Assembly: GCF_031458255.1 (NCBI RefSeq)
Contig: NZ_JAVDYC010000001.1
Coordinates: 4,597,001 to 4,661,000, forward strand
Reading direction: 5' to 3'
Length of the DNA stretch: 64,000 bases
Source of the DNA: Catenuloplanes niger
GTDB lineage: Bacteria > Actinomycetota > Actinomycetes > Mycobacteriales > Micromonosporaceae
In this document: positions 3,530 to 28,284 of the stretch, piece by piece
Layout of the letters: each line of letters starts with the position of its first letter
Numbering within the stretch: position 1 is the stretch's first letter
Position numbers and translations under genes: made by a program
The notes under the pieces: model-generated
Databases searched by the model: none
The model's input: only the letters and a program-made list of their open reading frames with translations
Told to the model about the DNA's origin: nothing

Positions 3530-4212
3530 GCTCCAACGGTTCACAGCCCAACCCCGTCGACGAGGAGACCTCGTCGGCGGGGTTGGACTATCTCGCGGCA
3601 CGGCTCATCGACGGCAAGCTCACCGGCACGCCGGTCGAGGACGCCGTCGACCTTCCCCGGATCGAGGCCGCGGTCCGGGAGATCCTCATCGCGCTCGGCG
3701 AGGACCCGGAGCGGGACGGGCTGAAGAAGACCCCCGCCCGCGTCGCCCGTGCCTACGCCGAACTGTTCGCCGGCCTGCGCGTCGACCCCGGCGCGGTGCT
3801 CGCCACCACGTTCGAGGCCAACCACGACGAGCTGGTGCTGGTCCGCGACATCGACGTGATGTCGCTCTGCGAGCACCACCTGCTGCCGTTCCGCGGCGTG
3901 GCGCACATCGGCTACATTCCCGGCACGCACGGCCGGATCACCGGGCTGTCCAAGCTGGCCCGGCTGGTCGAGGTCTTCGCCCGGCGCCCGCAGGTGCAGG
4001 AGCGGCTCACCTCGCAGATCGCCGACCTGCTCACCGAGAAGCTCGCGCCGCGCGGCGTCATCGTGGTGCTGGAGTGCGAGCACATGTGCATGGCGATGCG
4101 CGGCATCCAGAAATCCGGATCCAAGACCATCACCTCGGCGGTACGGGGCGGCCTCCAGACGGACGCGAAGTCCCGCGCCGAGGCGATGAGCCTGATCCTG
4201 GGCCGCTCCTGA
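3526..4212 (+). CDS. folE: GTP cyclohydrolase I
   Basis: Converts GTP to dihydroneopterin triphosphate, the first step of tetrahydrofolate synthesis. The family core runs from [22 protein letters not shown] to the end. Zinc-binding Cys-His is in [10 protein letters not shown] (Cys near residue 115) with the second Cys in [31 protein letters not shown] is also typical. The start is uncertain: no ATG or GTG lies between the ftsH stop and the core. CTG 3526, overlapping the ftsH stop as CTGA, and TTG 3583 are the candidates; I use CTG 3526. The usual partner folP is not next; it lies 13.6 kb downstream. Confidence 0.93.
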
Positions 4213-4388
4213 CCGGTCCCGCCACGGGATCGGTCCGGCGACGGGACCGGCCGCGGGTCCGCGAGTGCAGCCGCGGTGCTCGTGGCGTCCGCGCATCCGG
4301 CGGCGATGAGCGGGCTCGCCGCGGGGTGCGGCGGTAGCCGCGGTGTTCCCGCCGCCCGCGGGACCGGCAGGGAGGAGCGCCAGCGACG

Positions 4389-4438
4389 ACCGGTGCCCGC
4401 GGGAGCACTCGGAACGCGACCACGCCGGAAGCGGGAAG
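4389..4438 (+). repeat. dispersed intergenic element, copy A
   Basis: This ~48-bp segment (GCCCGCGGGAGCAC, ~12 variable bases, CCACGCCGGAAGCGGGA) recurs in inverted orientation at 54311-54357 and directly at 55391-55439, always outside genes. CCCGC at the left end can pair with GCGGG at the right end, giving a hairpin. The copy lies in the 278-bp gap between convergent folE and the gene at 4491, where I otherwise see no gene. Confidence 0.6.
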
Positions 4439-4490
4439 ACGTCCTCCGGATTCTGCCTCTCGCCCGTGCTTCTCGGTCCCGCGTCCGGCT

Positions 4491-5123
4491 CTACGTCGCC
4501 AGCGCGATGATGCCGACGCCCACGCAGGTCAGCACGCTCGGGGCGGCGCAGACCAACAGGCCCAGCGCGGGGGTGCGGTCGGCGCGGCCGTCGTCGCCGC
4601 GTGGGAAGGCCACGCCGATCGCGAACCAGCCCAGCGCGAACGCCAGCGCCGGCAGCGTCACGCCGAAGAGCAGCGCGAACGTGAGCAGCACCTCCGACCG
4701 CGCGGTCAGGTAGAGCGCCAGCTGGATGACCAGCACGGCCGCGGCCAGCGCGCCGTAGACGACCAGGTTGCGGACCCACACCGGCGTCCGCGGCGCGGCC
4801 GGCCGGTGCGGGGGCAGTCGCGACTCCGCCGCCTCCACCGTGGCCCGGGCCCGTTGCAGCGCGGAGCGGATCGCGGCCGGCCCGTCGCCCATGCCCACCG
4901 AGACCGCGGTGACCTCGTCCAGCGTCGGGATCAGCGCGGACTCCTCGGCACCCAGCTCGCGCAGGCGGGTGCGCTGCGTGACCAGGCGGGCGCGGATCAC
5001 CGCGAGGTCGTCGTGGGCGGCCCGGACCGGCCGGTCCAGACCCGCCGCGACGGTGGCGTCCCGGCGGGCCACGTCCAGCTCACGGGCGGCCTCCAGGTAG
5101 GCGGCCCAGGCGTCGTCGGTCAC
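4491..5123 (-). CDS. membrane protein with N-terminal helical domain, partner of the FtsK-like gene
   Basis: A 210-residue protein of unknown function. Residues 1-~115 are hydrophilic and helical, possibly coiled coil (long runs of Ala/Arg/Glu, with RLVTQRTRLRELGAEE). Three to four hydrophobic helices follow from ~125 to the end. Its GTG start overlaps the TGA of the upstream FtsK-like gene (GTGA at 5120-5123), so the two are very likely translated together and may form a membrane complex. No named family was recognised. Confidence 0.75.
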   Translation of the reverse strand: MTDDAWAAYLEAARELDVARRDATVAAGLDRPVRAAHDDLAVIRARLVTQRTRLRELGAEESALIPTLDEVTAVSVGMGDGPAAIRSALQRARATVEAAESRLPPHRPAAPRTPVWVRNLVVYGALAAAVLVIQLALYLTARSEVLLTFALLFGVTLPALAFALGWFAIGVAFPRGDDGRADRTPALGLLVCAAPSVLTCVGVGIIALAT

Positions 5124-8053
5124 GTCTCCCTCGCCTCCGCCGGCCGGGCCGTGCTCCTCGGCGCCGGAAGAACGTGCTGCTTGGGCTCGGTGCGGAACGG
5201 GATGAACGGCGTGCTGATCCCGGACCGGCGGTCGTGCAACAGCGCGCCGGCGGGTTCCGAACCGCCGCCGATGAGGTGGTCGATCTCGTCGGCGGGCAGA
5301 TCCAGCAGCGCCAGCCCGGAGATCTCGGCCGCCGCCGCGCTCAGGTCACCGGTGAGCCGGTGCGCGCCGCGCCACCAGGAGAGCAGGTGCACGCCGTTCG
5401 CCGGGCCGGTGCGCAGCAGACGCGTGAGCCGGTCCGGCGGAAGCGTCACCCGGTCACCGGCGTCCAGGCCGAACACCACCAGGTAGGCGGGCTCCTCCAG
5501 CTCCAGCGCCTTGGTCAGGCCGGCCGCGTCCAGGTGCTCCACCTCGTGCCGGCGGACCAGGGCGGCGGTCAGCGCGGCCGCGTGCCGGTCCGCGTCCGGG
5601 ACCAGCGTGCAGACCAGGAAACGGGCGGTGCCGGGTGCGAGGTGGGCGGAGACGCTGCGGGTGGCGGCGTGCAGCAGATCCGGTGCCTGCGGCGCGGCGC
5701 CGATGATCGCCAGGTGCCGGCCGGGCGCGGCGTCCAGCGGGAAGGCCACGGGCGGGGGCGGCGTGCCGGTGCTCCGGGCCGACACCGGGCGGCCGAGCAG
5801 AACCTCCACCGATGGTGTCGCCGGCCGATCCCGCTGCTCCGGTCTCTCTTGTTGCTCCGGCGGGTTCGGCTGCTCCGGCCGGTTCGGCTGGGTGGTGCGT
5901 GGGCGTGGCAGGGCGGCGTTGAGGCGGCTGTGGAGCTCGCTGAGCGCCTTGTGATCGGCGTCCGGATTCGGGAAGCGGACGAGGCGTTCGTGGCCTCTGG
6001 TGGCGTTTCTGGGGCCACCGAGTCCACCCGCGGTGTTGACCACGGCCGTGCCGGCGGGGAGGCTCTGCGCCGACTCGTTCGTGGGCTCCAGCACGTCACC
6101 GCCGCCGGGCAGCGCGATGCGCACCGTCCACTGGGCGAACAGGCCGTCACGTTCGTGCAGCGCCGGGATCGCGCGCGGGGACCGGCTGGTCAGGACGAGG
6201 TGGATGCCGCACGACCGGGCGCCCCGGGAGATCGCGGTCAGCGGCTCGAGCAGCTCGGGACGGGCCTGGAGCAACGGTACGAACTCGTCGATGACGCAGA
6301 CGATGCGAGGGTTCGTCTCCTGTGGTCCGCTGTCCCGGCGTGCCGTGTCCTTCGGGCGTGCGTGGGCCCTCTGGCGTGCCTCGGTGGCCAGCGCGGTGCG
6401 CAGGTCGGCGAAGCGGGTGGTGCCGTGCCGGGCGGCGAGTGCGGCGCGGCGGTTCAGTTCCTGGGTGAGGCGGTGCAGGATGCGTTCGGCGTCGCCGTCG
6501 ACGTGTCTCAGGTGAGGTGCGCTGTCGCCGCCGGCGGTCCGGGCCGCGCTCCCGCTGGTGTGGGTGCCGCCGCCGGCGTTGGTGTGGTTGCTGCTCGTAT
6601 GGGTGCCGCTGGTCTGGGTGCCGCTGGGGCCGTCGATGACGAAGAGGGTCAGGTCGTCCGGGGAGTAGCGGGCGGTCAGGCCGGCCAGCGCCGCGGTCAG
6701 GAACGCGGACTTGCCCGACGACCTGCGCCCGCCGATCAGCCAGTGCGGCGCCAGGTCGGTCAGCTGCACGGTCACCGTGCGCTCGCCGTCCCGGCCCACC
6801 ACCGTCACCAGACCCTCGGTGCCGTCCTCCGCCCACAGCTCCGCCGGGAGCACCTCACGCAGCGAGGGCCGCTCGAACGCGAGAAAACCGGACGCCAGGC
6901 GACGGCAGACCGCGGCCAGCATCTCCGCCGGCGGGTCACCGTCCAGCAGGACCGGTGAGTTCAGACCCACGTCGTTCGGCTGGGCCGCGAACGACGCACC
7001 GGGAGGGTCGCCGACTATGGCGTACGCCTCGCGGAGCGTGATCGGGGTACTCAGCGGCAGCGGCTGCGCCGGCAGACCGGTCGCGAGCGCGGGCGGAGGC
7101 CAGCCGGCCACCAGCAGGTGCAGGCCGGCCTCGGGACCGCGCGCCGCCAGCTCCCGGAAGCGCAGCAGGTCGACCGGTTCCGCACCGGCCGGGAACGAGG
7201 AGACGACGAGCAGGAAAAGGCGCTTGTCGTCCCGTCGTTGCTCCCGTTTCCGCTGCTCCGGCCGCCGGGCGTCGGTGTGGCGCGACTCCAGGCCCCGGGG
7301 CGCCAGGACGCGGTGCTCGGGGAGGTGCGTGTCCTGGGTGGGTGTGTCGTGGGTGGGTGCGTTCTGGACGTGCGTGCTGTGGGTGTGTGTGCTGTGGGTG
7401 TGCGTGTCTTGTGGATGTGGGGCGGGCGCGCTCTGGGTGCGGGGGTGCGTGCCGGGCGTGTCGGGCTTGCGGGAGTCCGGTAGGCGAGGAGCGCGCAGGC
7501 GGAGCCACTGCTCGGCCTCGGCCAGCACCGCGCGCAGCCCCTCGGGATCCGTTACCGGCGGCGGCATCAGACCCGCCTCGGCCAGCGCGGCGAACGGGGC
7601 GAAGACCGCGTCGTCCGCGCCGTCGACCGCCCGGACCAGCAGCGACCCCGGCTCGGTCGACGCCAGCAGGCGCAGCAGGACAGCCCGCAGCAACGCCGCC
7701 GTGCGCGGGTCCCGACCGTCCGCGTCCACCGTCAGATGACCTGTCCCGGCCAGCGGCACCACGGCCGGAAAACCCGCCTCCGGCAACGGCCGCGCCGTAC
7801 CCACCCGGACGAACGCCGGCCGTCCGGCCGGCGACTCCGGCGGCACCTGACCGGTCGCCAGATTCGCCCCCAGCCACCCCGGCACCAGCATCGCCGCCGC
7901 CGCGGCCAAGCGCTCCGCCAGCCCTCGCTGCGCCTGCAGATCAGCCGGAGCCGGCGTCAACGCGTGCAACCCCGCGTCCGCCGCCGCCAACACCGCCGCC
8001 GCCTGCCGGTGCAGGGCGGCGGCCCGGCTGACGTCCGTCTCGTCGTCGGCCAC
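5120..8053 (-). CDS. FtsK/SpoIIIE-type ATPase with a second degenerate ATPase domain
   Basis: A 977-residue cytoplasmic P-loop ATPase. Walker A GGRRSSGKS is near residues 445-453, a Walker-B-like VCVIDEFVPLL near 588, followed by HLVLTSRSPRAIPALHERDG, the layout of FtsK/EccC-type motor domains. A second domain (about 730-950) keeps the fold (RHLAIIGAAPQAP) but has lost the P-loop Gly-Lys-Ser/Thr. Two His/Thr/Ser-rich low-complexity inserts, at about 205-245 and 475-505, are unusual. GTG 8053 is preceded by a strong GGAGGTGAG. There is no transmembrane part; the overlapping downstream gene supplies membrane helices. It could be an EccC-like export motor or a coupling ATPase for the neighbouring secretion-like operon. 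No WXG100 gene is seen, so an ESX role is unproven. Confidence 0.85.
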   Translation of the reverse strand: MADDETDVSRAAALHRQAAAVLAAADAGLHALTPAPADLQAQRGLAERLAAAAAMLVPGWLGANLATGQVPPESPAGRPAFVRVGTARPLPEAGFPAVVPLAGTGHLTVDADGRDPRTAALLRAVLLRLLASTEPGSLLVRAVDGADDAVFAPFAALAEAGLMPPPVTDPEGLRAVLAEAEQWLRLRAPRLPDSRKPDTPGTHPRTQSAPAPHPQDTHTHSTHTHSTHVQNAPTHDTPTQDTHLPEHRVLAPRGLESRHTDARRPEQRKREQRRDDKRLFLLVVSSFPAGAEPVDLLRFRELAARGPEAGLHLLVAGWPPPALATGLPAQPLPLSTPITLREAYAIVGDPPGASFAAQPNDVGLNSPVLLDGDPPAEMLAAVCRRLASGFLAFERPSLREVLPAELWAEDGTEGLVTVVGRDGERTVTVQLTDLAPHWLIGGRRSSGKSAFLTAALAGLTARYSPDDLTLFVIDGPSGTQTSGTHTSSNHTNAGGGTHTSGSAARTAGGDSAPHLRHVDGDAERILHRLTQELNRRAALAARHGTTRFADLRTALATEARQRAHARPKDTARRDSGPQETNPRIVCVIDEFVPLLQARPELLEPLTAISRGARSCGIHLVLTSRSPRAIPALHERDGLFAQWTVRIALPGGGDVLEPTNESAQSLPAGTAVVNTAGGLGGPRNATRGHERLVRFPNPDADHKALSELHSRLNAALPRPRTTQPNRPEQPNPPEQQERPEQRDRPATPSVEVLLGRPVSARSTGTPPPPVAFPLDAAPGRHLAIIGAAPQAPDLLHAATRSVSAHLAPGTARFLVCTLVPDADRHAAALTAALVRRHEVEHLDAAGLTKALELEEPAYLVVFGLDAGDRVTLPPDRLTRLLRTGPANGVHLLSWWRGAHRLTGDLSAAAAEISGLALLDLPADEIDHLIGGGSEPAGALLHDRRSGISTPFIPFRTEPKQHVLPAPRSTARPAEARET
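6535..6640 (-). repeat. low-complexity T/G/H/S-coding insert in the FtsK-like gene
   Basis: An irregular run of ACC/CAC/AGC/GGC codons between the Walker A and Walker B regions encodes a Thr-Ser-Gly-His-rich stretch. It interrupts the conserved part just after FVIDGPSG, so it probably forms a surface loop. Confidence 0.55.
7319..7435 (-). repeat. TH/ST repeat-coding insert in the FtsK-like gene
   Basis: GT-rich on the plus strand (runs such as GTGGGTGTGTGTGCTGTGGG), this encodes repeated Thr-His and Ser-Thr-His units on the minus strand, about residues 205-245. The simple-sequence nature suggests slippage-driven length variation. A His-rich loop could bind metal, but that is speculation. Confidence 0.6.
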
Positions 8054-22030: not shown

Positions 22031-22100
22031 CCGGGGCGCGGGCACCTCCGGCGGCACGGCCGGGCCCGGACATCCCGGAGCCCGGCCGCACGCCGTCGCG

Positions 22101-22212
22101 CCACGAGAGCAGCGCGCCACGAGAGCAGCGCGCCACGAGAACAGCGCGCCACGAGAACAGCGCGCCACGAGAACAGCGCGCCACGAGAACAGCGCGCTAC
22201 GAGAACAGCCTG
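22101..22212. repeat. seven tandem 16-bp repeats at the 3' end of the ABC ATPase gene
   Basis: Six copies of CCACGAGARCAGCGCG (R = G in the first two, A in the next four) are followed by a seventh variant that is the end of the ABC ATPase coding region, including its stop codon (TAG on the minus strand). The array appears to have grown by duplication of the gene's last bases. Confidence 0.85.
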
Positions 22213-23164: not shown

Positions 23165-23872
23165 ATGTCCTCTCGGCAATGGGCGGTTTCGAGCGTGCAA
23201 TACGCCGACGCACCCGGCAACCCGTGGTTTTCTTGGCAGTATCTGCGGGACAACGCCGATACGGTGCTGTCCGCGCTGGTCGAGCACGTGACGCTGACCA
23301 CCCAGGCGGTGGCGTTCGCGGCGGTGGTCGGACTCCCGCTGGCCGTGCTCGCCTACTGGTTCCGGCCGCTCACCGGCCCGATTCTCGCACTCTCCGGCGT
23401 GCTCTACACCATCCCGTCGCTGGCCCTGCTCGCGTTCGTGGCGCCGCTGGTCGGCACCACCCGCCCGGCCTCGGTGCTGATCGCGCTGGTGCTCTACGCG
23501 CTGCTGCTGATCGTGCGTAACACGCTGGCCGGGCTCAACCAGCTGCCCGCGGAGGTTCTCGACGCGGCGCAGGGCATGGGGTACGGCCGGTTCGCGCGCC
23601 TGTTCCGGGTGGACCTGCCGCTGGCGATCCCGGCGATCCTGACCGGCTTGCGGCTGGCCACGGTCTCCACGGTCGCGCTGGTCACGGTGGGCTCGCTGAT
23701 CGGCTACGGCGGGCTCGGCGACCTCATCCTGGGCGGTTTCCGGAACAACTTCTACAAGGCGGAGATCCTGGTCGGCACCGTGCTCTGCGTGGCGCTCGGC
23801 CTGCTGCTGGACCTGCTGCTGGCCGGTGCCGGGCGACTGCTCACGCCGTGGACGAGAGGTGCCCGCGGATGA
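23165..23872 (+). CDS. osmoprotectant ABC transporter permease 1
   Basis: 235 residues, about six TM helices, with the EAA-type loop LPAEVLDAAQGMGYGRFARLFRVDLPLAIPAILTG that contacts the ATPase. The end IGYGGLGDLILGGFRNNFY is typical of OpuCB/OpuCD-type permeases. ATG 23165 is supported by the TAGGTT box; a GTG near 23195 is an alternative. It overlaps the second permease gene by ATGA. Confidence 0.92.
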   Translation: MSSRQWAVSSVQYADAPGNPWFSWQYLRDNADTVLSALVEHVTLTTQAVAFAAVVGLPLAVLAYWFRPLTGPILALSGVLYTIPSLALLAFVAPLVGTTRPASVLIALVLYALLLIVRNTLAGLNQLPAEVLDAAQGMGYGRFARLFRVDLPLAIPAILTGLRLATVSTVALVTVGSLIGYGGLGDLILGGFRNNFYKAEILVGTVLCVALGLLLDLLLAGAGRLLTPWTRGARG

Positions 23873-24576
23873 ACGCGATCAACCAGGCGATTCTCTGGCT
23901 CAACGACCCGCTGAACTGGTCCAACCCCGGCGGGATCCTGGACCGGCTGGGCGAGCACCTGTGGATCTCGTTCGCCGCGGTGCTGATCGGCTGCCTGGTC
24001 GCCTGGCCGGTCGGGCTCTGGCTCGGGCACACCGGGCGCGGCGGCGGCGTGGTCGTGTTGATCTCCAACGTGACGCTGGCGATCCCCACGGTCGCGCTGC
24101 TGACCATCCTGCCGCTGACGCCGCTCGGCTTCGGCCAGCGACCGGTGATCCTGGCGCTGGCCGTGTTCGCGGTGCCGCCGCTGCTGGCCAACGCGTACAC
24201 CGGCGTGCGGCAGGTCGACCCGGAGGCCCGGGACGCCGCACGCGGCATGGGTCTGTCCGGTCGTCAGCTGCTCACCCGGGTGGAGCTGCCGCTGGCCGTG
24301 CCGTACCTGGCGACCGGCTTCCGGACCGCGTCCGTGCAGGTGGTGGCCACCGCGGCGCTGGCGTCGTTCGTGAACGGCGGCGGGCTCGGCCAGATCATCA
24401 GCGCCGGGTTCGGGCTCGGCATGTCGGTCGGTGGCGGTCAGATCCTGGCCGGCGCGCTGCTGGTGGGGTTGCTCGCGCTCGGCATCGAAGGACTGCTGGC
24501 GCTGGTGGAGCGGGCCCTGACGCCCCGGCCGCTGCGCCGTCCCGGACGGTTCCGTCGTCGACCGGCGACCGCCTGA
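23869..24576 (+). CDS. osmoprotectant ABC transporter permease 2
   Basis: 235 residues with about six TM helices and the EAA loop VDPEARDAARGMGLSGRQLLTRVELPLAVPYLATG. FVNGGGLGQIISAGFG is a family hallmark. Start ATG 23869 overlaps the first permease's stop. The C-terminus is Arg-rich. Both permeases plus the divergent ATPase and the downstream binding protein complete one transporter. Confidence 0.92.
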   Translation: MNAINQAILWLNDPLNWSNPGGILDRLGEHLWISFAAVLIGCLVAWPVGLWLGHTGRGGGVVVLISNVTLAIPTVALLTILPLTPLGFGQRPVILALAVFAVPPLLANAYTGVRQVDPEARDAARGMGLSGRQLLTRVELPLAVPYLATGFRTASVQVVATAALASFVNGGGLGQIISAGFGLGMSVGGGQILAGALLVGLLALGIEGLLALVERALTPRPLRRPGRFRRRPATA

Positions 24577-24690: not shown

Positions 24691-24820
24691 GTACCCGGCG
24701 CGAAAGATGTTGGGTGAGACAGCGCGGGCGGTCCCGACCCTGGTGAGGCACCAGGTGCATCCGCCCGTCGGACACGCGGCCGCCCCGACCGGGGCGCGCC
24801 GGGACACGGAAGGCGGGCAC

Positions 24821-25822
24821 GTGAGATTTTCGCGTCTGACCGTCGGCGCGCTCGGCGCGCTGGCGGCGGCAACCATACTGAGCGGCTGCGGCGAGGCCGG
24901 CTCGTCCGGCACCGAGGCGCCGGCCAGCGCGGCGGCGGGCGCCGGCTGCGCGGGCGTCGCGGGCACGTCGCTGGTGGTCCTCACCGACGACAAGGGCCTG
25001 CAGAACACGGACAACGTGCTGCCCGCGATCAACAAGAAGGCGGCCACGCCGGAGCTGATCGCGGCGCTGGACAAGGTCTCCGAGTCGCTGGACACCACGA
25101 AGCTGATCGCGCTGAACAAGGCGGTCGACGTGGACCGCAAGACGCCCAAGGTGGCGGCGGACGAGTTCGCGGCGACCGCGGGCCTGACCACCGGCATCGC
25201 GAAGGGCCCGGGCGGCGACATCAAGATCGGCGCGGCGAACTTCAGCGAGAACCAGACGCTCGCGGAGCTCTACAACATCGCGCTCACCGCGGCCGGCTAC
25301 AAGGTCACGGTGCAGCAGATCGGCAACCGTGAGCTGTACGAGCCGGCGCTGGAGAAGGGCGAGATCCAGGTCGTCCCGGAGTACGCGGCGACGCTGGCCG
25401 ACTTCCTGAACGGCAAGGTCAACGGCAAGGACGCGGCGCCGGTCTCGTCGCCGGACCTGACCGCGACCACCACCGCGCTCGCGGCGCTGGGTGACAAGGT
25501 CGGCCTGGCGTTCGGCAAGCCGTCCGCCGCGCAGGACCAGAACGCGTTCGCGGTCACCAAGGAGTTCGCGGCGAAGTACGAGCTGACCACGCTCAGCGAC
25601 CTGGCCGAGAAGTGCTCGGGCGCCGCGACCGTGCTCGGCGGTCCGCCGGAGTGCCCGCAGCGGCCGAAGTGCCAGGCCGGGCTGGTCACCACGTACAGCT
25701 TCCAGGCCGGTCAGTTCAGCTCGCTGGACGCGGGCGGCGCCCAGACGAAGAACGCGCTGAAGACCGGCACCATCTCCGTCGGCCTGGTCTTCTCCTCCGA
25801 CGGCGAACTCGCCACAAGTTGA
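24821..25822 (+). CDS. osmoprotectant-binding lipoprotein with circularly permuted domain order
   Basis: 333 residues. The lipobox LSGC puts the lipidated Cys at 23. The rest matches OpuBC/OpuCC-type glycine betaine/choline-binding proteins (IKIGAANFSENQTLAELY, IGNRELYEPALEKGEIQVVPEYA, SAAQDQNAFAVTK, LGGPPECPQRP, LDAGGAQTKNALK, VGLVFSSDGELA). However, the segment normally at the C-terminus (LVVLTDDKGLQNTDNV... to DEFAATAGL) is at residues 51-122, before the usual N-terminal strand at ~133. The protein ends right after VFSSDGELA, where that segment should follow. GTG 24821 is preceded by GGAAGG. Confidence 0.9.
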   Translation: MRFSRLTVGALGALAAATILSGCGEAGSSGTEAPASAAAGAGCAGVAGTSLVVLTDDKGLQNTDNVLPAINKKAATPELIAALDKVSESLDTTKLIALNKAVDVDRKTPKVAADEFAATAGLTTGIAKGPGGDIKIGAANFSENQTLAELYNIALTAAGYKVTVQQIGNRELYEPALEKGEIQVVPEYAATLADFLNGKVNGKDAAPVSSPDLTATTTALAALGDKVGLAFGKPSAAQDQNAFAVTKEFAAKYELTTLSDLAEKCSGAATVLGGPPECPQRPKCQAGLVTTYSFQAGQFSSLDAGGAQTKNALKTGTISVGLVFSSDGELATS

Positions 25823-25841: not shown

Positions 25842-25883
25842 TCCGGCGCCATCCGCCCTGCTCGGGGACGGGATGGCGCCGGA
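25842..25883 (+). terminator. strong hairpin after the ABC binding-protein gene
   Basis: TCCGGCGCCATCC (25842-25854) pairs with GGATGGCGCCGGA (25871-25883), a 13-bp perfect stem about 20 bp after the stop. No long T-run follows, as is usual in GC-rich actinobacteria. Confidence 0.7.
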
Positions 25884-25924
25884 TTGTGCTATCCGAGCCC
25901 GTTTCGCTATCCGGCAACTCTGGG

Positions 25925-25930
25925 TAGGCT
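25925..25930 (+). promoter_or_regulatory. -10-like TAGGCT before the gene at 25939
   Basis: TAGGCT ends eight bases before ATG 25939 and no Shine-Dalgarno is present. This supports a leaderless transcript and the choice of this ATG over the in-frame start at 25873. Confidence 0.45.
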
Positions 25931-25938
25931 TCACCACC

Positions 25939-28284
25939 ATGCCAGCCCCTGATCCGGTGGAGGAGCGGGCGAATCCACGCCTGACACAAGGCCTGCTCTG
26001 GGCCGGTGTCGGACTCGCGCCATTCGCGGCACTGCTCCTGCTCCTCGGCGGCAGCACCGGCATGCTCCGGTTCGCCGTCTTCGTCGTGCTCGTGTCGATC
26101 GCGCTGATCGGCACCTCGGTCGCTCTCCGTGGCGGATCGGGTGCGTCGCGCGTCGATCTCGAAGAGGCGATGGTCGAGGAGATGGTGCGGCTCCGCGCCG
26201 AGGTGCGCAGCGAGATCGCCAACGCCACCCGGGTCGGTCAGGCCGCGTCCAACCAGCGACTGCAGGCGCTCGGCGCCGCGCTCGACGGCCTGCAGGCGCA
26301 GCTCGCCGCGGTGCAGAGCGCCGCCGAGCCGGGCCAGCCGGCGATCGCCGCCCCCGCGGGCCGGGCCGCCATCGGTGCGTCCGCCGCGGTTCCGGCACCG
26401 TCCCCGGTGGAGCCGGTGACCGGCCGGGCGACGGCGTCCGTGTCCGTGTCCGCCGGCTACGCACGCGCATCCGTGACGCCCACGCCACCCGCCGAGCAGG
26501 ACGGCTACCGCGGGCGCGGCTACGGCCAGGACGCCGGCTACGGCCAGGACGCCGGCTACGGCCAGGACGCCGGCTACGGCCAGGACGCCGGCTACGGCCA
26601 GGACGCCGGCTACGACGGGGACGGCGGCTTCGACCGGACCGCCGACTACGACCGGGACGGCGGCTACGACCAGCCCGGCACCGACGACCGGGACGACTCC
26701 TACGCCCGGGGCGACGGTTACGGGCAGGCCGGTGGATACCCGCCGGCTGAGGAGAGCACCTACGGCGGCGACCAGGGTGGCTACACGCCACGCCGGGCCC
26801 AGCCGGACGACGGCGGCTACACCGCCCGGCGCTCCGCGGCCGTGGAGCCGGACGAGATCTACGGCAGGAACTCGTACCGGGACGACCGCGGCGATCGTGG
26901 CGACCGCGGTGAGTGGCGCGGCGACCGCGACTACGACGCCGACGACCGCCCGGGTCACGACCGTTCCGGTTACGACCGCGACGGCTACGGCCGCAGCCGC
27001 GCGGACGAGGACCGCTACGACCGGCCGGCCTGCTACGACGCCGACGACGACCGCCGCGACCGGCGTGCGGACCGGGGCGGGGACGAGTCCGGCCGGGGCC
27101 GGGCCGGCGGGTCCGCCGGTGTGGGCCGGCGCGGCCAGATCTCCGGCGGTCTCGTCCGGCACACCGAGACCGTGCACGTCACCACCCGCTCGACGATCGT
27201 GGATCCGCGCGGCGACAGCGGCTCGCTCTACGGCACCGGCGAGTTCAACGGCCCGCGTGGCGGCTACGGTGACGACTACGGCCGGGACAACCTCGACCGT
27301 GGCCGCCGTGCCCGCGCGTTCGACCCGGGCGCCCGCGACTTCGACCCCGGCTACCGGGACTTCCGCGGCGGCGGTTACGGCAATGACGACAACGGCTACG
27401 GCGACGAGCGCAAGAACTACGGCGACGACCGCAAGGGCTACGGCGACGAGCGCAAGGGCTACGGCGACGAGCGCGGGAGCTACGGCGACGACCGCCGGGG
27501 TTACGGGAGCGAGCGCGAGGAGAGCACCGACGACGTGGTCGGCCGCCGCGCCGCCCGGCCCGGGCAGCCGAGCTGGGGTGAGCGCGGTGAGCAGGTCAAC
27601 CCGTACGAGCGCCCCGCGCTGGAGGCGACCTCCGCCGAGCCGAGCTGGTCGCAGATCCGCCAGGCCGGCGACCGCTACGCCGCGGTCCGCCAGGACGACC
27701 GCGGCCAGGAGCTGCGCGTCGGCGAGCGCCGGGCCAGCGTGCACACCGACGAGTCCGGCAGCGAGCTGCGCGTGGAGGACCGCTGGGAGTCGGTCCGCCG
27801 CGAGGATCGCCCGAACCCCTACGACCGGGACCGCCGCGGCCCGCAGACCGGCCAGATGCGCCGGGTGGCCGATGCCGGCCCGTCCACCGGGCAGATGCGC
27901 CGGGTGGCCGACGCCGGCCCGTCCACCGGCCAGATGCGCCGGGCGATCGATGCCGGCCCGTCCACCGGCCAGATGCGGCGCGTCGGTGGTGAGGACCCGC
28001 AGCCGTGGCGCACCCAGCAGCGCGGCGGCCGGCGCGAGGAACCGTGGCGGGTCGGCCCGGACGACGGCCTGCCCGGCGCCGACGAGCCACTGCGCGGCCG
28101 GTACGACGACAGCTGGCGCGCGGAGCGCGGTGCCCAGGACCACCGCGCGGACGACCGGGACGACCGGGGCCGGCAACCGCAGCAGCGCTTCGACCCCGCC
28201 AGCCTCTACGGCGAGGCCAGCCAGTTCACCGGTGACCAGCGCGCGATCTCGGCGATCCAGTGGGACCGCGAGGACTACCGCTGA
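25939..28284 (+). CDS. membrane protein with long repetitive Tyr/Gly/Asp/Arg-rich tail
   Basis: 781 residues. Two TM helices at about 16-35 and 40-58 are followed by a short helical segment ([22 protein letters not shown], possibly coiled coil), then ~650 residues of low-complexity, charged, probably disordered sequence. Three tandem-repeat blocks are built in: GYGQDA x5, a seven-residue YGDERKG-like unit x6, and a 13-residue TGQMRR(V/A)-type unit x3.5. The function is unknown; such tails often scaffold or phase-separate, but that is inference. It converges with nuoD, with 14 bp between the stops. Confidence 0.8.
26518..26607 (+). repeat. five tandem 18-bp repeats (GYGQDA)
   Basis: Exact copies of GGCTACGGCCAGGACGCC encode GYGQDA five times, followed by a degenerate sixth. 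The identity at DNA level indicates recent expansion. Confidence 0.9.
27394..27519 (+). repeat. six imperfect 21-bp repeats (YGDERKG-like)
   Basis: Six in-frame 21-bp units alternate GAG/GAC and CGC/AAG codons, encoding alternating YGDERK and YGDDRK units. They are more diverged than the 18-bp block. Confidence 0.85.
27847..27981 (+). repeat. 39-bp tandem repeats, three full copies plus a partial
   Basis: Three 39-bp units and a partial fourth encode a 13-residue [13 protein letters not shown]-like unit. Unit 3 has changes giving RAID in place of RVAD. Confidence 0.85.

Follow-up and report, generated by a model that had tools for sequence, protein, structure and literature searches.

A circularly permuted substrate-binding lipoprotein in an actinobacterial ABC importer operon

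The gene at 24821-25822 (+) of a 64,000-nucleotide stretch of Catenuloplanes niger DNA (hereafter the window) encodes a substrate-binding lipoprotein whose segments appear in an unusual order. This raises the question of whether the order is genuine and, if so, how it arose and what it means for a protein whose two lobes move about a hinge.

Segment order of the encoded protein

The gene is intact: a GTG start at 24821, with the sequence GGAAGG seven bases upstream (24808-24813), opens a coding region (24821-25819) for 333 amino acids that closes with the stop TGA (25820-25822). The N-terminal signal peptide (24821-24889, +) ends in the lipobox LSGC, and by the lipobox rule Cys23 is predicted to be lipidated. 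A new N-terminal tail follows, carrying Cys43 (24947-24949, +) directly ahead of the moved segment, residues 49-128 (24965-25204, +), which comprises the hinge strand LVVLTDDK, the C-terminal part of lobe I (positions 188-256 of Pfam OpuAC) and a linker that joins the old C-terminus to the old N-terminus. Residues 129-333 (25205-25819, +) contain the old N-terminal part of lobe I and then lobe II (OpuAC 2-184). The loop EKCSG of lobe II carries Cys265 (25613-25615, +), and CPQRPKC spans Cys278 to Cys284 (25652-25672, +), a pair common to many normal-order relatives; the chain ends directly after FSSDGELATS. We refer to this layout, defined by sequence, Pfam matches and rotation, as CP1.

By score, the window protein belongs to Pfam OpuAC (PF04069; 134.7 bits against a cut-off of 21.2), and the match is divided into two stretches that stand in the reverse of the canonical order. 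The original prediction had placed residues 51-122 at the end of the normal chain and 133-333 at its beginning, and separate alignment of the two segments bore this out: searched alone, excised residues 51-118 matched model positions 188-256 (E 1.6e-10), the end of OpuAC, and residues 133-331 matched positions 2-184 (E 2e-28), its beginning. Once the sequence was rotated to normal order, a single stretch remained (residues 5-274, model positions 2-255) and the score rose to 151.1 bits. Against A. fulgidus ProX (PDB 1sw1) the unrotated protein scored 41.6 bits, with its best stretch at chain residues 8-171, and the rotated query 53.8 bits across residues 8-273, while for OpuBC (3r6u) rotation raised the score from 37.5 to 50.5 bits. 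The NCBIfam equivalog OsmF (NF049931) gave 62.5 bits, again in two stretches, against a cut-off of 400.

Linear profile and fold comparisons divide permuted proteins into two partial matches, as they did here. When a profile of 56 CP1 sequences was compared with the PDB, none of the 27 chains returned had a best stretch spanning both segments, and this comparison thus turned up no experimental structure with the CP1 order. An AlphaFold2 model computed from a 56-sequence input (the window protein and 55 of 80 named loci) reached a pLDDT of 88.6 and a pTM of 0.81, with a mean of 95 over mature residues 21-30 (mature residue 21 is Cys43). In the 50 Foldseek rows listed, TM values to the query were at most 0.45, with no chain of high similarity; such low values are expected of a sequential aligner and are no positive proof of the fold. 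The five top matches were OpuAC and A. fulgidus ProX.

Could the permutation be only apparent, a normal C-terminal segment downstream being concealed by misassembly, a frameshift or a wrongly placed start? The original prediction had raised the contingency of a segment that continues after 25822 in a frame separated by a sequencing error; at E 1e-3 the sequence downstream of the CP1 gene yielded no second copy of the moved segment. In all 110 loci of the collection (L001-L110) each segment matched once, in permuted order and in the same frame; 80 of these loci come from named records, which stem from many separate assemblies, and some represent one genome that was retrieved in two ways (L005 and L031 are an example). 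Five proteins of the same family share the permuted order at an identity of only 47-51%. The own genome holds a single copy of the CP1 gene. With the order constant at 110 of 110 loci, we consider a frameshift or misassembly ruled out and give the whole artefact reading a vanishingly small chance.

Descent of CP1 and its operon

A profile in normal order was built, and 204 reading frames were classified by their start and end positions in it; among the frames listed, those of CP1 end at model position 198-200. A tree of 94 rotated rows (56 normal-order, 26 CP1 and 12 of a second permuted form, CP2, described below) was then inferred in IQ-TREE under LG+C20+F+G4. Of L001-L110, only 17 chosen loci were kept; L142 and L123 (truncated), identical rotated sequences and L201-L215 were excluded, and two very long rows, L129_can_b and L184_can_b, are included. 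All 26 CP1 rows form one clade (support 100/99), nested among 28 normal-order rows in a clade of 54 rows (support 100/100), and several alternatives for the sister of CP1 among the normal-order groups are compatible with the tree. CP1 seems to have arisen once in the sampled tree, from normal-order actinobacterial proteins. Taken together, the Pfam matches, the rotation test, the 110 loci and the position of this clade inside the normal-order proteins uphold the circular permutation that had been proposed for the window protein.

The original prediction had also proposed a route, tandem duplication with loss of the outer halves, which is the standard model of circular permutation but goes further than the data. 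Both segments are nearest to the same few normal-order relatives: the four best normal-order rows for the long segment are L120, L121, L122 and L124, and the three best for the moved segment are three of these four. The duplicated intermediate itself did not turn up, as no fused tandem duplicate occurs among the 204 classified reading frames. Four matches with in-frame stops were considered as tandem intermediates and rejected, G373 being a normal-order gene and G363, G508 and G519 being CP2; G333 and G532, considered as fusions, each consist of two adjacent normal-order genes with separate lipoboxes. The window protein might instead be a fusion of pieces from two neighbouring paralogues. Adjacent normal-order binding-protein genes of different subfamilies do exist, at L143 (2889-5032, -) and L144 (2797-4949, +), and the two segments have different top relatives, L121 for the long one and L122 for the moved one, where L121 ranks only about ninth. 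Against this, the same rows lead both lists, the relative ranks of the segments among non-CP1 rows correlate (Spearman 0.53), and L120, L121, L122 and L124 all share a group of six rows in the tree (support 92/92). The shared proximity of both segments to L120-L124 therefore favours permutation of one gene, and we regard a fusion of paralogues as quite improbable.

The genes beside CP1 are those expected of an ABC importer. Two permease genes with BPD_transp_1 domains (PF00528), at 23165-23872 (+) and 23848-24576 (+), precede it, and an ABC ATPase gene (PF00005; 22197-23213, -) diverges from them, so that a lipobox protein adjoins two PF00528 proteins and one PF00005 protein, as in the binding protein of such a system. 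The same arrangement, a divergent ATPase gene and then permease 1, permease 2 and the binding protein, recurs in all eight CP1 loci examined (L031, L032, L094, L103, L106, L153, L154 and L155) and in the normal-order relatives L138, L149, L150 and L156; next to normal-order L145 and L146 no such arrangement was detected. Since CP1 and four normal-order relatives have this layout in common, the permuted gene most likely took the place of the normal gene in situ. The normal-order proteins found to be closest are likewise actinobacterial and belong to operons of the same type; they are not Bacillus OpuBC/OpuCC. Elsewhere in the neighbourhood, a 16-base repeat of about seven copies lies 3' of the ATPase gene and overlaps its last bases (22097-22209); it had no exact two-unit match in 215 loci and no other site in its own genome. 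Downstream of CP1, an open reading frame of 803 residues (25873-28284, +) is rich in Gly, Tyr, Asp and Arg and contains tandem repeats of 18, 21 and 39 bases.

CP1 is spread over several actinobacterial families. Close copies are found in a C. japonicus contig (93% identical) and in four genomes of the same genus (93-96%). In the window's own family (Micromonosporaceae, judged from named relatives) 233 of 250 genomes gave a match, 193 of them at E 1.8e-66 or better and 40 weak only, and 17 gave none. Among the matches listed, the strong ones cover the query nearly end to end; seven lower-scoring strong cases were re-examined and comprise six complete CP1 proteins at 47-61% identity and one cut by a contig end, while the three weak cases that were examined are all normal-order paralogues. 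In the class sample CP1 occurs in at least 12 of 296 genomes, from families f1, f10, f26 and f36, and it is also found in named Cellulomonadaceae (L103 and L106). These last two group with the CP1 proteins of Micromonosporaceae (support 100/100), apart from the rows of f10, f26 and f36, which suggests horizontal transfer.

A second cut site in the same family

The matches with in-frame stops led to the detection of a second circular permutation of this family, CP2, which is cut inside lobe II and occurs in 12 genomes. Its chain opens with the strand that precedes the ECxxRPxC region; the remainder of lobe II follows, then the hinge, the C-terminal segment and finally the N-terminal part, which ends after the SDLA helix at profile model position 133-134. 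Pfam matches residues 50-182 of L139 to model positions 115-256 and residues 45-175 of L141 to positions 117-256. The loci are L139 (3674-4639, +), L141 (3695-4639, +), L140 (within 4004-5128, -) and those of nine further genomes (L172/L190, L191, L192, L193, L173/L194, L195, L196, L197 and L198), and ATPase and permease genes are co-directional with CP2 in the three loci examined. Three CP2 genomes belong to the class (G363, G508 and G519; sample of 296), and nine, all outside the class, were found among the 246 genomes of the phylum sample; a search of a 246-genome class sample with one CP2 protein returned one, G363.

The two forms do not share an origin in the tree. With sets defined by segment order, independently of the tree, AU tests rejected both a single clade of CP1 and CP2 (p-AU 4.7e-65) and a single clade of all CP2 (p-AU 1.4e-6); the nine rows from outside the class were not rejected as one clade (p 0.18), this set having been named after inspection of the tree. 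CP2 is separate from CP1 and apparently has at least two origins of its own, so that these rejections point to at least three permutation events, provided that reversion to normal order is excluded.

How do these cuts relate to permutations already described? The relation of OpuAC to ProX may be described as a 'domain dislocation'. A search of the open-access literature for this description returned nothing, and the term 'permut' is absent from the study of L. lactis OpuAC (PMC2861598). Glycine-betaine-binding proteins were reported to be permuted relative to each other in the 2008 account of CPSARST, which sets B. subtilis OpuAC (2b4l) against ProX of E. coli (1r9l) and A. fulgidus (1sw1) (PMC2395249), so that circular permutation among these binders is already known. 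Our comparisons are in line with this: Pfam shows E. coli ProX in normal order (residues 30-312, model positions 2-256), and its residues 154-218, 250-321 and 28-121 align to OpuAC 14-77, 89-155 and 164-255, all weakly (16.5, 2.3 and 13.5 bits); the end of CP2 corresponds to ProX residues 118-138, also weakly (3.0 bits). OpuAC and CP1 belong to the same Pfam OpuAC superfamily and have undergone the same kind of event, but the OpuAC cut falls within lobe II, after the SDLA helix and ahead of the next strand, which is roughly the CP2 cut (frame end 133-134), whereas CP1 is cut at the second hinge strand (198-200). OpuAC would share its cut with CP2 by convergence. Neither CP1 nor CP2 was found described in the open-access literature, and as far as that literature shows the CP1 cut, its wide occurrence in Actinomycetota, its cysteine pair and the separate CP2 origins are new.

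Hinge, cysteines and pocket

In type II binding proteins the hinge consists of two strands (PMC9732360), and A. fulgidus ProX, EgtUC and OpuBC/OpuCC are normal-order members of this type, in subcluster F-III (PMC9732360). CP1 proteins have two additional cysteines: Cys43 in the new tail and Cys265 in the loop after the SDLA helix are present in all 108 unique CP1 proteins, and six further diverged ones (47-61% identical to the window's) keep both when read by eye. The loop column holds cysteine in 26 of 26 CP1 rows, in one of 56 normal-order rows (the long-branch L184_can_b) and in none of 12 CP2 rows; Cys43 cannot be scored in normal-order proteins, as the tail has no counterpart there. The second pair, Cys278 and Cys284 in ECPQRPKC, is found in 41 of 56 normal-order and 9 of 12 CP2 rows. 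Because CP1 is severed immediately ahead of the second hinge strand, a disulfide between Cys43 and Cys265 would anchor that strand's loose end on lobe II, and we infer from the sequences a bond that would in this way re-tie the hinge, although the two cysteines could also pair otherwise.

The binding pocket is a further point of comparison with A. fulgidus ProX, to which the rotated protein is homologous across nearly its whole length. Of the ProX pocket residues, which we take to be Tyr63, Asp109, Tyr111, Arg149, Tyr190 and Tyr214, the rotated alignment pairs the first three with Tyr188, Asp239 and Asn241 and the last three with Arg281, Phe324 and Asp64, so that Tyr63, Asp109 and Arg149 are kept. 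Counted over the 26 CP1 rows and the 28 normal-order rows of the same clade, Tyr188 and Arg281 are invariant (26/26 and 28/28 each), Asn241 and Asp64 nearly so (26/26 and 27/28 each), and Asp239 is frequent (24/26 and 25/28); Phe324 is Phe in 23 of 26 CP1 but only 9 of 28 normal-order rows. The agreement at most positions suggests that the pocket, for the most part, predates the permutation. ProX combines normal order with a four-tyrosine cage, whereas here only two of the four positions are aromatic (Tyr188 and Phe324), the others being Asn241 and Asp64, so that the window protein lacks the full aromatic cage that encloses the ammonium group in quaternary-ammonium binders of subcluster F-III (OpuBC/OpuCC/ProX type). 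The description 'osmoprotectant-binding' in the original prediction goes further than the data and should be read as an annotation, two of the four cage tyrosines of A. fulgidus ProX falling on Asn and Asp here; the expectation that the gene is probably functional agrees with its conservation, its operon context and its unchanged pocket positions.

We consider it probable that the window protein is a working binding lipoprotein of a two-permease ABC importer, derived from an ancestral normal-order actinobacterial gene that was circularly permuted once. The cut falls at the point where a normal-order chain returns from lobe II to lobe I, directly ahead of the second hinge strand, and a short linker joins the old C- and N-termini; tandem duplication, in-frame fusion and trimming would have produced this form and, separately, CP2. 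The lipidated N-terminus would now enter through the severed hinge strand, both lobes would close on the ligand in the manner of type II binding proteins generally, and a CP1-specific disulfide, Cys43-Cys265, would replace the lost peptide link.

Alternatively, the permutation may be neutral, with binding and docking unaffected, fixation by chance and the extra cysteines unconnected to the cut. In keeping with such neutrality, most pocket positions are unaltered and the genes keep the same layout in the operon, and Tp0684 (MglB-2, type Ic or cluster Bc) of Treponema pallidum, also a natural, lipid-anchored, permuted ligand-binding protein, undergoes a conformational change when it binds glucose (PMC4990184). 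Tp0684 differs from the window protein, which by its Pfam match and its five top Foldseek matches is of the OpuAC kind and not of type Ic or cluster Bc, in its glucose ligand, its type I fold and a permutation located in the N lobe, with a fourth cross-over, and the available text of that report mentions no disulfide staple (PMC4990184). The constancy of both cysteines in 108 of 108 CP1 proteins, one of them nearly absent elsewhere, speaks instead for a structural need accompanying the cut; the lack of the loop cysteine in all 12 CP2 rows indicates that this is not a need of every permutation. Neutrality is in our view the unlikelier reading, if a serious one, and we favour repair of the cut hinge, for which the candidate disulfide offers a specific and cheap test.

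More broadly, we advance with somewhat less than even confidence the idea that this family is a permutation hot spot, with at least three separate events in Actinomycetota that used two cut sites, of which one is shared with Bacillus OpuAC, and that the disulfide of CP1, in place of the broken hinge, maintains the action of the two-strand hinge and couples domain closure to the extracellular redox state. Since the permuted form, normal-order relatives of the same operon layout and permutations at another site all occur within one phylum, the origin and tolerance of permutation in a moving two-lobe protein may be tested by swapping the forms within a single operon.
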